A stretch of DNA of 64,000 bases from Branchiostoma floridae (lineage: Eukaryota; Chordata; Leptocardii; Amphioxiformes; Branchiostomatidae), in NCBI RefSeq assembly GCF_000003815.2, contig NC_049993.1, positions 1,729,275 to 1,793,274 on the forward strand, given 5' to 3'. How positions within the stretch are numbered: the stretch's first letter is position 1; every line of letters begins with the position of its first letter. This document shows positions 19,101-25,100 of this stretch, in pieces. Below the pieces are notes generated by a model that searched no databases, was not told where the DNA came from, and saw only the letters and a program-made list of their open reading frames with translations. A program made the translations under genes and the position numbers.

Positions 19101-22100
19101 GAGGATTGACGTTACGTTTGTAGCTACCGGATCCTAAATGCTTTCTCAGAGAGTAATGAGTTAATGGGGGAAGTGATTTGCACAACGGCACAGCCATAAA
19201 ATAAGAACGGAAGAGGGTTTAGCGTCAGCTTATCTCGACAATCATCAGAGATAATCATCAGCAATCGCCATCAGACGTCACGTCACCCCGGCTCGTCCCT
19301 GGTGGAATCAGCCACGTGGAATGTTGTGGGCATGGCTGACGTTATCTCACACACTGAACTGTAAATTAACTGTCAGAAGTCCCAGTATATATATAGCCTC
19401 TGGGAGGAGGGGCGTCTAGTGTAATTGTTTTTATTCAATGTGTCAACTTAGTTGCTGACGCGGATTCGCAAGTGTAATGAATAAGTGATAAATGTATGTG
19501 ATTTCTTATTGCTGAGATGAAATGTATTTACAAGCTGTTGTTTTACGCATTTTTTTCATGGAAAGCACATTTCCAGAAACAAACTAGAGTTCGACGGAAT
19601 CATTGCCAAATGAACNNNNNNNNNNNNNNNNNNNNNNNNNNNNNNNNNNNNNNNNNNNNNNNNNNNNNNNNNNNNNNNNNNNNNNNNNNNNNNNNNNNNN
19701 NNNNNNNNNNNNNNNAGTCTAGAGCTGAGATACATTTTTTTCTGAAATTCAGAAAAATAGAATCCGTGAACCAAGACATTGAATTGGACTGGCCTGACGT
19801 TATCTTGATAACAGTCAATGCTCTGAGCAACTTGATACTCGAGAGTAGCAAGGACGTTGGTACTGTAAGGTCACATTGCAGGTGGAAGATGACCCGGAAA
19901 CACAAACACAGGCACACTCCAAACTATATCTCCATTTGTCATGGAAATAACTATTAACAAAACCGCAGACGTTCAAAACACATGAGATCAACCTATCCTC
20001 AATTTTCCTTCAACATAAGTCTGCTCAAGTTGGTAAAAGTGATTGGCACCCAGGAGGCAGGGGGCAAGGCTGGGTCAGCCTGCAAGCTTGATCTACTTGC
20101 CTGGCACTGAACAGTTGTCAATAAGACACGTCCAAGCAGAGGTAAGGAGAGACAGTGGAATTATAAACTTCCCACATTGATTATGCAAATTAGCTTTTAA
20201 TTTGCATAACTAGCATCTCATTATGAACGTCTTCACTAAGGCTATCCACGTATGAAAATCATGACGATCCGGCAACACGTTCATATTTCCATTAATTATG
20301 AAAATAAACTCGCCATTTTCATAATTGATATATATCGACATTTCTCTATTTCCCAGCCACACATGTCAGAAGTTTGAAAGTCCTATCATGTCCTGAGGTG
20401 GACTTATAAACGTTCCTCATTTATTATGCAAATGAGCTTCTCATTTAAATAATTAGCATTCCATCACGCAGGCCATCACTCATTCCATCTGCATACCAAA
20501 AATCATGACGATCCGTCAACACGTTCTCGATCCAGTCATCCTCACCCAAAGTTCGAAAGTAAGCCGGCGCCTGCACTTCCAAGAAAGCCGCTAGGGGGCC
20601 CGAACTCGCAGCAATCACTCTGTGCCCCGAGGGCTCTCTACCGCTCAAAATTCACGACCGCAGCATGTCCAGAACGCGAGATATCAAACATGGAGATTCC
20701 GCTGCAGCACCTTAGCAAGCCGATAGGGGGCCCCTTATCGAACTCCCCCTTCGTTCTCCAGACCCCTACCCTAATATCAGCTGCATCCGTCGCAGTCTTC
20801 TCGAGTTATGCTGTTTACAAACAGGGGGAAGACACACAACCCGACCGAAAATATAACCTTAGCCATTCTGGCAAAGGTAACACGACTTTGCTTCATCTGC
20901 AGTGCTTATGATATGCAATTTGAAAGGAAGTCGCTAGAAGGCCAAAAATCCAAGATCATTGCAAACTGCAAAGTTAATTGTCTGCTATTTTCACCAGCTT
21001 CTCATCCAGCAACAAACTAACTCACCAAATGAAAGTGGTGACAAAAGTCTCATTGACGGGCTTACAGAAGTAGGATTCAACCCTGCTCTCCTTACAACCT
21101 CTCCCATCAGACCAGGACTACCCATACGTACCGAAGACGAAGTTGTCTGGGCGGAAGATCTGTCCGAAGGGTCCTGACCGTACGGAGTCCATGGTGCCGG
21201 GTTCCAGGTCCACCAGAATAGCGCGGGGAACGTACTTGCCACCTGGGGAACAAACAAGTGTTGTTTTGTTAATTCCTCACATTGTCTTTATTGTTTAGGA
21301 TTCTGTAGACAGGACAGCTTTAAGATTCCCTGAATATCTTTTTTTAATTGCCTGACAGTATTTTTGTTGTCATAGACACTGCTGAACATAGTCTGTGTAA
21401 CACAAACTCGGCTGTTCAGGGCTGTAATGTTGGTCGGGCTGCTATAAGCGAGATTTAATCAGGCTATGCTTAACAGTGACATTGTCACAAGACAGACCGA
21501 CGATGTTTTTCCGATGTTGCTCTTTAAATCCATGAAACCTCTAAATCTACATAGCAGGACTTCACACTGCCAACCTCTCCGTCTCCTGACCCCCTCTCTT
21601 TGCCCATGCGCAGTTAGCCCTGGGCATGCCTAAAACTATTACAGTGACTCTGTCACATCTGCCCCCGTTTCTTTGATTGATACACTCGTTACAATCATTA
21701 CTACTCCAAGAAACATCCTATGTTGCAGTGTGAGTCCTGTAGGCATGCATTGTATACAGACATTAACAAAACAAACTACTATTACAAAACTACTACCATC
21801 AAACTAAAGTCCAAATGTCCGTTCAAAACGTCGGCGGCCTAGAATATCTAATACAAAGTTAAATGTCTAATAACTCAGAACTACCCTTTTTTTTCAACAT
21901 GCAAGGCTACTCTAGTGTCCGTATTCGTCAGTCCTTTTCCATGCAGTTACAATTCTCAAGTCCATATTCATCAGTCCTTTTTCGTACTGATTCACCATGT
22001 CGGTAGTGCTTCATGCAGGCTTAGACTCCACTAGTTTGATCTTACAACCATTGATTTCAGTCCCGTCAAGCTTACGCCAGGCATTCTCCATGTCTGGGTA

Positions 22101-25100
22101 GGTGGCAAATTCCACAATCCCCTCATTCCTGTTCTGCTTGTGCACATCAGCAAACTTTAAGGTGACTTCTCCAGCTTGCCGCATGTAATCCTTCAAGTCC
22201 TGCCAGCTACAGCGACTGGACAAGTTCTTCACGATCAGGTGGTAGTTAGTGCGGACAGGCGGGCCATATCGTTTCCTGCTCCCTGGCCCCCGGCCGCCAC
22301 CAAGGTTGTGCACGTCACGATATCCTGGGCCAAAGCCACGCTGGCTCCCTCCATACATGAATCCTCGGCTCCTGTCGTAATCTCCGTCCCGTCTGTAACC
22401 CCCGCGACCTCCTCCGTCTCCATGGCAACCGAAAGCTGGTCCGTTATTGGTGGAGGCTATCCTCCAGTCCCCTGCGGATGTGGTCTCCTGATCTAACTTT
22501 TGCGTTGGAGCTGTCTGTACCAGCTTGGCCAGGTTCGGGATGTCACGTCCGAGGATGACAGGTCTTGGCAGGTTTTGACTCACTTTGGCTTTAACCGCAT
22601 AGGTTGTATTCCCCGCATTGATAGTGACTCTTGCGGTCGGATAGTTTTGCACGTCCCCATGGATGCACTTTATGCCGCCCTGAGCAGCTGACACGATCTT
22701 CATAGGGTGAACCAAGTCGTTGTGGACAAATATCTGCGTACTTCCCGTGTCTAAGAACATAGTCATCGGTGTTCCCTCGACTTCTCCGTCGCACTCGTAC
22801 CCTGTCACTTTTCCGTTGCTGGCGTATAATGACGTCGCTTGGGACGGCCCCATCAGTTGTCTCACTTGCGGGCAGGCCCTGGCCAAGTGCTCCGGGCTGT
22901 TACATTTGTAGCACTTCTTGACAACGCGGGCATCACCGTGTCCACCCGGGCTCCCGCTTATGAGCCTCTAGGAAATGCTGAGCCATCTCTGCCATCTCTT
23001 TAATGGACTGCGGGGCTCGCTCTCGTAGGTGAGTGGCCAAGTCTCTTAGACATGCCTCCATGAACTGCTCCCTGACGAACAAGTCCCGGAGGGACTCGTA
23101 GTCCCTGGTCGTCTTGGACAAATCTACCCATCGGTCTAAGTGCTTGGTCAGTTGCACCAGAAACTGTTCCGGACTCTCCCCCTATCCTGGTTGGTTGTGA
23201 CGAAACTTGGCACGGAATCCGTCTTCCGTAAGATTGTAGCGCTGCATAAGTACCTTCTTCACCTTTTCATAATCCCAGGCGTCATGATCGCTAAGCCGAG
23301 AACATACTTCCAGTGCCGTTCCGTTGAGCAAGGCACTTAAGGCAGAGGCCCATGTTGTCTCCTTCCAGCCGTTGCAGGTTGCAAACCTCTCGAACCTCTG
23401 TAGAAAGGCATCGAGGTCGTCCTTGCCATCCTCGAAGGCTGGAAGCTTGGGTACACTTTCCGTTTCTGCGGCTTCACCTTTCTCTGGCACCAGCTGTCTC
23501 ATCTCCAGCTGATGTCGCCGTTCCGCTTTCTTCTCCTGCCTTTCTCTCTCTTTTTCCTCAGCTTGTAACTTCAGCTTCTCTATCTCTACCTGCCGTTCCT
23601 TCTCTTTCTCTTCAGCTTCTAACTTCTGCTTCTCTATCTCTACCTGCCGTTCCTTCTCTTTCTCTTCAGCTTCTCAACTTCTAACTTCATCTTTCCAGCT
23701 TCTAACTGCAGTTTCTCCATCTCTACCTGTCGTTCCTTCTCTCTCTCTCTTCGGCTTCTAACTTCAACTTTTGCATTCCTCTTTCCTTGGCTCTCTCCTC
23801 CCTCTCCAGTGCCTGCTGCACATACGTTTGCAAAGCCTCCTCCTTCAGGCCTAGTTTCGAACCTGCCTCGATATGTCCTTCCATCTTCCTTTTTTTGACG
23901 CTCTACAGCTTACTGATTTGTTTTGGCCCGTCTGGGGGTGATGTTCTACAGTTTACTGATTTGTTTTGGCCCGTCTGGGGTGACGTTCTTTTCGCTGGCT
24001 TGATATCATGCACACACAAAGAAGATGTTTGTTATCATACGGATTGGTTCCATATGCATCCAATTAAGAAGGCATCACTGTAAGTATGGTTGAAATTCTT
24101 TACCCTTCTCTCCCTCAGCAGTAGGGTACATCAACAACTTGGCCAGTCGGACAGCCTTCCAAACTTTCTACTTACTGCTTGGCCAATGGTCACTCTCGTT
24201 CGTCTCTACTGCATGAAAAGTTCGGGAAGTTCTGTAGGCTGAGGGTCTCACTTACCGGTCGTAGACCTTCCGTGAATTTTATCCCACTTCTCGACACCAC
24301 TTGTCACAAGATAGATCGACGCTGTTGTTCCGATGTTGCTCTTTTAATCCATGAAACCTCTAAATCTACATAGCAGGACCTCACACTGCCAACCTCTCCG
24401 TCTCCTGAACCCCTCTCTTTGCCCATGCGCAGTTAGCCCTGGGCATGCCTAAAACTATTACAGTGACTCTTTCACAGACATCCTACGGACATGTGCGGTG
24501 ACGGTGTTTTGGAGAAGTCCCATCCCCTTTATCAATTGTCAATTTGATCAATTCAACTTCCCTTGTACGTGCTGTTTCCTGATACTACTCAATGGGTGGA
24601 GCACGTTTCAGAATCACATTTTGGCAGTCGCTAGACACTGTAGAGGGTACGGTATCAATTGTAAATGAGAAGTCACTTGAGTAACGGTGGATAAAATTAG
24701 CCAGACGCCCTAATTTCCGGGGGAACTAGACTGCATCACCGCCACCTGACGACGGAATCATTCCGCGGCTCTTGCGTGGTGGGTTCGAGCAGAAAATTAC
24801 TACGCATAAGTTTTAAACTTACAATTAAAAAAGTTCACAAAGCTAGGGTTCACGTGGTAGGAACAGTGAAGTAAGAGCGTTTTTTTTCATGAGAATCCAA
24901 AATGCTCTACCACATCTTATATAGAGATATTCAAACAGGTTTCTTTGTCTACGGCACTGTTAGCTATAACCAGACGCTCCATACTTGCTTCATCTAGAAA
25001 CAGTATAACGTTATATATATATATATAAAGCATTTAGAGCTCGATTTGTCATTTAGGTACACTCCATTCGGGGCTCATCATGATACCTACTTTTGGCAGA

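Follow-up and report, generated by a model that had tools for sequence, protein, structure and literature searches.

How a fragment of a splicing factor comes to stand inside a long terminal repeat (LTR) retrotransposon, and whether it serves the element there, is the question raised by a locus of the lancelet Branchiostoma floridae. The stretch of DNA analysed, called the window here, is 64,000 nucleotides long (assembly GCF_000003815.2, contig NC_049993.1, positions 1,729,275 to 1,793,274 of the forward strand), and an element on its minus strand holds an intact, continuous frame of 318 amino acids (22011-22967) that encodes a CCHC zinc knuckle, an aspartic protease, a Gly/Arg-rich linker and an RNA recognition motif (RRM) of the SRSF4/5/6 RRM2 type (Table 1). 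In the window DNA the captured block is a single open frame. A first-pass annotation had read the protease frame as running unbroken into linker and RRM, had put the RRM in the place of a missing reverse transcriptase and integrase, and had described intact LTRs with a GACAT duplication, a primer site and a purine tract; the frame is indeed continuous, neither enzyme was found in the element from the frame list or by Pfam, and all of the terminal features could be located in the sequence.

With a host coding piece in frame inside it and the polymerase lost, the element has the composition of a transducing element like Bs1 of maize. It combines a gag capsid, a CCHC knuckle and an aspartic protease, as Ty3/Gypsy elements do, and its placement among these (Metaviridae) rests on gag and protease. 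The Gag region, whose match to the start of P0205 (one of the related proteins P0196-P0313 considered below) begins at 23884, is damaged: the coiled coil shifts frame twice, the capsid part contains one in-frame stop, and the frame shifts once more ahead of the CCHC knuckle, so that the window copy is dead.

We read the locus as a dead, non-autonomous Gag-protease-RRM2 copy of a kind of element in which the slot behind the protease was refilled at least three times by host mRNA-binding pieces, the modules acting as adaptors to RNA or to messenger ribonucleoprotein (mRNP), and we give this reading as a whole a probability of about 0.5. The narrower statement, that an LTR element captured the RRM2 of an SRSF4/5/6 protein and spread with it in lancelets, we hold with high confidence.

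Identity and descent of the RRM

The best PDB sequence match of the RRM is SRSF6 RRM2 (1.5e-35), and the same domain is the best Foldseek match (5.1e-09) of a predicted structure of 107 residues with the order beta-alpha-beta-beta-alpha-beta and a modest pLDDT of 63.7. The motif SWQDLKD, which forms the RNA-contact helix of the SRSF1 pseudo-RRM as described in PMC7813835, is invariant across 22 aligned sequences, the window and its second copy P0001 included. The assignment to SRSF4/5/6 RRM2 made at first sight is thereby borne out by PDB, fold and motif, and the Pfam, PDB and Foldseek E-values lie well outside what chance would give. At its end, VESKPA, the frame stops at the point where the host consensus continues into the arginines that start the RS domain; with the RS domain absent, RRM1 missing and a single RRM left, the product is not an SR protein. 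No donor lancelet SR protein was named among the matches listed (120 of 458 and 120 of 889), some of which are nameless. The window RRM also has a Leu-Lys insertion (22155-22160) near beta-strand 2 that is absent from P0001 and from 192/192 host-type segments.

P0001 is an NCBI protein of 519 amino acids from Branchiostoma floridae x japonicum, annotated as a gene, with SCAN, CCHC, protease and RRM. It is identical to the window frame at 254/321 positions across the whole protease-RRM junction and ends at the identical residue; its linker is about 13 residues longer. Two residues common to both RRMs, W297 and C308, occur in 0/192 host-type RRM2 segments (192 of 193 SRSF-type proteins, one having been removed by a motif and length filter), and three others are rare among them: R298 (1), E294 (2) and K232 (3). 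Where the two copies differ, the host residue is mostly kept by one of them. Judged from these residues, a single captured ancestor most likely gave rise to the RRMs of both the window and P0001. The earlier proposal of capture by a propagating element has thus gained a second copy, known as a protein record, with the same junction, the same stop and two residues not seen in any of the host segments.

The possibility that an SRSF retrocopy inserted by chance into an LTR element had been named beforehand as the alternative to capture. A run of eight A residues 116 bases past the RRM stop could be taken for the trace of such a retrocopy. This origin is contradicted by P0001, which has the same junction and stop; moreover, the block lacks both RRM1 and the RS domain, and 22250-22520 and 21658-22010 have no word of at least 8 bases in common (none seen, where chance alone would give about 1). 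We therefore rejected nested insertion as extremely improbable.

Further searches added little. In viral contigs searched with P0001, one stretch fitted a pattern and none was confirmed; a PDB search with the P0001 post-protease tail and linker gave nothing credible (best 0.23, a PETase); and an NCBIfam scan of four proteins returned weak protease models only.

Other host modules behind the protease

When the gag-protease part of P0001 was used as query, 190 proteins matched, of which 120 were listed and 118 (P0196-P0313) examined; the counts that follow hold among the matches listed. The protease motif was recognised by pattern in 56 of the 118, and at least 60 residues follow it in 30 of these. 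Seven of the 30 tails carry a host-type module, three are unexplained, and 20 are polymerase-type, being assigned, mostly by eye, to polymerase linker, reverse transcriptase or integrase. Kin of autonomous type include P0224, with RVT_1, and P0257 and P0278, with the integrase model PF00665.

Six of the host-type tails belong to lancelet proteins with eIF4B-type ends of the form PKLxLAxxTKP..IFGxAKPVDTAARE: P0197 and P0198 from B. lanceolatum, P0199 from a B. floridae x belcheri hybrid, and P0200-P0202 from B. belcheri. In the PDB, the P0197 tail matches human eIF4B 341-409 at 2.8e-10 (a shorter piece at 3.3e-10), the P0202 tail matches eIF4B at 1.5e-04, and a profile of the P0197, P0198, P0199 and P0202 tails does so at 5.6e-11; the tails of P0200 and P0201 are nearly identical to that of P0199 and owe their assignment to this likeness. 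Since the arginine-rich RNA-binding motif of human eIF4B holds Ser406 and Ser422, as given in PMC9598784, the matched piece reaches into that motif. The remaining host-type tail is that of P0206, a remoter SCAN-gag protein of 798 amino acids, in which an FDF domain (Pfam, 6.1e-15) lies between RGG-like stretches and matches PDB 6f9s chain B ("Cytokinesis, Apoptosis, RNA-associated") at 9.1e-14. We take this chain to be CAR-1 of the LSM14 family, and 6f9s to be a complex of the DDX6-LSM14 type. To judge by these matches, three different host mRNP modules (SRSF RRM2, eIF4B and LSM14) follow the protease in one kind of element.

Two observations stand beside this. Past its eIF4B piece, the P0202 gene model ends in what we presume to be a Gypsy RNase H end; a polymerase may thus be situated close to certain copies with the eIF4B piece, or two elements may have been merged in the model. 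P0208 and P0209, both from B. belcheri, have SCAN-gag-protease followed by a 96-residue tail that is not polymerase-like and could be a further captured module; in P0208, P0209 and P0286 Pfam recognised nothing in the tail past gag and protease, and the P0209 tail had no PDB match.

Might these proteins be host genes? The annotation of P0001 is that of a gene, with a product of 519 residues, and it and its kin could be Gag-derived host genes, the copy in the window being a stray relative of them. That copy, however, is equipped with LTRs, a target duplication, a purine tract and a primer-like site, and the eIF4B kin lie on contigs of unlike sizes in B. lanceolatum and B. belcheri, all of which makes domestication very unlikely.

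In a phylogeny built on the CCHC-protease part, with 22 rows and 171 columns, nine lancelet rows group with good support (99/98). The window and P0001 pair at 89/89, and the eIF4B types, together with P0196, which is without an eIF4B tail, form the other side of the lancelet group at 92/95, both values lying below the level that the tool marks with a star. P0206 falls in the other half of the tree with Porites and further rows, on a long branch whose exact place is unsure, and the LSM14 capture therefore seems to be a separate one. Behind the protease, the tail of the window element, in a query extended into the linker, resembles those of P0197, P0198 and P0202 (0/500 shuffles each) and not that of P0199 (27/500); for the P0001 tail, the counts against P0197, P0198, P0202 and P0199 were 0, 0, 1 and 26 of 500. 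The RRM elements and most eIF4B lineages accordingly seem to have this tail in common and to diverge after it.

Whether the linker itself came from eIF4B was approached in several comparisons. The window linker resembles the eIF4B DRYG region at 7/1000 shuffles, against 46, 66, 330 and 362 for four SRSF linkers; this preference was not repeated by the P0001 linker (eIF4B 52/1000, a Mytilus SRSF linker 17/1000). The DWR stretch of the tail has no significant match to human eIF4B (window 435/1000, P0197 145, P0202 355), so that order is the sole argument for an eIF4B origin of that stretch. On one reading of these sequences, the RRM element may descend from an eIF4B-bearing element.

Possible constraint and role of the modules

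Between the window and P0001, identity is 17/18 in the CCHC knuckle, 76/83 in the RRM, 41/47 in the Gly/Arg linker, 73/87 in the protease and 31/40 in the post-protease tail. Between P0197 and P0199, 36/58 positions of the eIF4B piece, 58/95 of the protease and 99/154 of the capsid are identical. The eIF4B piece is thus kept as well as the protease, where an unconstrained passenger should have decayed further, and this indicates, short of proof, that the captured module is constrained at the protein level.

The view opposed by this argument is that host pieces entered through template switching or read-through, took the place of the polymerase fortuitously and do nothing for the element. The elements would then be ordinary non-autonomous products that simply get copied, as may be true of many transduced fragments. 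Precedents exist: Bs1 is described as carrying pieces of three host genes, none with a full-length open reading frame (PMC13317346), and LTR-mediated retroposition is reported for animals (PMC8232201). Abundant mRNAs of translation and splicing factors would presumably be caught most often, and the difference in identity between the RRM and the protease lacks significance. Such accidental capture sits less well with a fusion that stays in frame in the two RRM copies as well as in six proteins with the eIF4B piece, with SWQDLKD retained in both RRMs and with modules about as conserved as the protease; we regard it as a serious possibility without favouring it.

The element encodes only Gag, protease and the fused RRM2 and has spread in lancelets as that unit, with reverse transcriptase and integrase presumably used in trans; under the adaptor reading, particles would be supplied partly by an autonomous relative. 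The slot behind the protease would have been filled at least three times, by SRSF RRM2, eIF4B and LSM14 pieces. The modules were most likely retained because the fusion lends the Gag-protease precursor additional affinity for RNA or mRNP, which would help the element to have its own RNA packaged, stored or translated. Other systems offer an analogy: Ty3 retrosomes and retrotransposition are reported to require P-body proteins, Dhh1/DDX6 among them (PMC4589538), and foamy virus packaging to require DDX6 (PMC3192847). An adaptor function of the captured modules is what we infer.

Several points weigh against that reading. The RRM does not exceed the protease significantly in identity (p 0.16), nor the remainder of the frame (p 0.10), the eIF4B piece beats the protease in 3/6 pairs and trails it in 3/6, and separate recapture of a conserved host motif could mimic constraint. 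Predicted introns may be concealed at the junctions of the gene models P0001 and P0197-P0202, a junction being seen as DNA in the window only, and P0206 is one sequence on one 3560-base contig that could be an assembly chimera. Detection favours known domains, three tails (P0208, P0209, P0286) having stayed unexplained; with only three kinds of module and this bias, the RNA theme may reflect chance or abundant mRNAs. In the foamy virus system, DDX6 is described as not stably bound to Gag (PMC3192847). Finally, GGA sites are in slight excess in the internal part of the element (88 against 73.3 expected, 2/300 shuffles), a weak enrichment that we do not count in favour, and its untranslated parts have 7 against 7.5 expected at the 5' side and 10 against 6.9 (27/300) at the 3' side.

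The RRM might instead act in the splicing or export of the element's RNA, as the first-pass annotation had suggested. Pseudo-RRMs of the SRSF RRM2 type bind GGA/GGN (PMC7813835), and the coding RNA is GGA-rich, with 71 sites against 59.6 expected (6/300 shuffles). The frame lacks an RS domain, the slight GGA excess is not clear in the untranslated parts, and sister elements carry eIF4B and LSM14 pieces. Both of these are cytoplasmic factors. Modules of this sort in the same slot favour a general role as RNA or mRNP adaptor over a splice-specific one, and a splicing or export role appears very improbable to us; of the annotation's overall proposal, capture by a propagating element is supported and the splicing role is not.

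The adaptor reading can also be stated in a stronger form, which we offer tentatively and think rather unlikely to hold in full. SCAN-gag retrotransposons of animals would have, behind the protease, a swap slot in which host mRNP modules are put in and exchanged time and again and selected as adaptors that draw element RNA into Gag particles or ribonucleoprotein granules, the window element would be a serial chimera of gag-protease, eIF4B DRYG and RRM2, and loss of the polymerase would be offset by success in the competition for packaging.

The element in its surroundings and among known systems

The two LTRs differ by 8 mismatches in 175 positions (K80 0.047). The primer-like site TGGTGTCGAGAAGTGGG, which we take to resemble the 3' end of tRNA-Leu(CAA) with one base off, lies close to the 5' LTR, and the purine tract GGGGGCAGA adjoins the 3' LTR; no tRNA gene was found within the 64-kb window. 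No long frame lies in 21658-22010, the listed frames there being of at most 60 amino acids and outside the Pfam scan. The duplication at 23896-23980 in the leader could be a regulatory or packaging feature.

Table 1. Features of the LTR element and of its target site; positions refer to the window.
Feature	Position	Strand	Basis
Target site duplication GACAT, left	21478..21482	.	sequence
LTR element	21483-24476	-	175-bp LTRs, TG..CA ends, GACAT duplication
3' LTR	21483..21657	-	repeat comparison
Purine tract GGGGGCAGA, adjoining 3' LTR	21658..21666	-	sequence
3' untranslated part, 353 bases, RRM stop to 3' LTR	21658..22010	-	one A8 run
SRSF4/5/6-type RRM2, YGPPVRT to stop	22011..22268	-	Pfam RRM_1 3.9e-14, SRSF6 matches, alignment
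Gly/Arg-rich linker	22269..22409	-	shuffle comparisons
Post-protease tail with DWR..NGP	22410..22532	-	common to eIF4B-bearing lancelet elements
Aspartic protease (DTGST)	22533..22793	-	Pfam gag-asp_proteas 7.4e-08
CCHC zinc knuckle	22866..22919	-	Pfam zf-CCHC 7.9e-06
SCAN-like capsid C-terminal part of Gag	22933..23181	-	Pfam SCAN PF02023 6.3e-10
N-terminal Gag: coiled coil and capsid N-terminal part, frames broken	23182..23884	-	frame list, match to P0205
42-base direct duplication in 5' leader, directly before gag start	23896..23980	-	repeat search
TGG-primer-like site TGGTGTCGAGAAGTGGG	24283..24299	-	2 bases past 5' LTR
5' LTR	24302..24476	-	repeat comparison
Target site duplication GACAT, right	24477..24481	.	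sequence

In a comparison with a human tubulin sequence, tubulin matches at 25312-25199 and 21249-21100 flank the element. It is thereby placed within a beta-tubulin gene, in the second intron and in the gene's own direction, so that signals of the element could affect the transcript. The beta-tubulin gene extends over about 18 kb of the minus strand (13943-31834).

Elsewhere in the window, long frames on the plus strand at 5347-7302 (651 amino acids without a stop) and 43261-44971 (two overlapping frames) presumably resemble LINE reverse transcriptases. Tandem arrays of a 163-bp unit at 56710-57360 and 61333-62118 lie in opposite orientation. Beside each is a frame whose N-terminal peptide, LARSLIQLTLRLTRTGVALCG, is identical in the two, which gives the look of a single element occurring as an inverted pair. 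A frame of 429 amino acids at 38340-39629 (plus strand) repeats a motif around RRASYKAKxANE in its C-terminal part and presumably resembles a portion of some larger transposon, for example a Helitron. At 11075-11688, a 66-bp unit is repeated in tandem 9.3 times with frames open on both strands.

That LTR elements capture host coding sequence is already known, best from plants. In topical searches of one open-access library we found no description of a propagating in-frame fusion in animals that recurs with different RNA-binding modules, the pairing of eIF4B or LSM14 with retrotransposons not having been searched. All three recognised modules are mRNA-binding or mRNP parts, a hint that selection rather than accident shapes their retention, and this would open an old question to testing, namely by what means non-autonomous elements vie with others for particles and whether RNA-binding domains of the host may be converted into aids to packaging or translation.

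Among known systems, Bs1 of maize encodes gag and protease and is not known to encode a reverse transcriptase. Like the lancelet element it is an LTR element with host gene fragments, and several captures are described for one lineage (PMC13317346). It differs in being a plant element with an ATPase and two carbohydrate-enzyme fragments, whereas the three modules recognised behind the SCAN-gag proteases are RNA-binding or mRNP parts in separate lineages. LTR-mediated retroposition in metazoans, on which Tan et al. 2016 worked, reportedly yields mostly single retrocopies. There too a host mRNA is copied into an LTR-flanked unit (as cited in PMC8232201), but the window fusion is present in more than one copy. 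The LTR retrotransposons of bdelloid rotifers are likewise animal elements with acquired open reading frames of varied origin (PMC5408684). They keep gag/pol and add an ORF3 (env-like, esterase or exonuclease), while in the window a host fragment stands where pol would be and continues the protease frame. In retroviral oncogene transduction, a host gene displaces viral genes and leaves the virus dependent on a helper; the window element, in a lancelet genome, carries an RNA-binding part and not a growth gene. Also comparable are the SCAN-gag LTR elements of corals, lancelets and other sources, whose Gag has SCAN, CCHC and protease as in the window, although several of them continue past the protease into reverse transcriptase or integrase.

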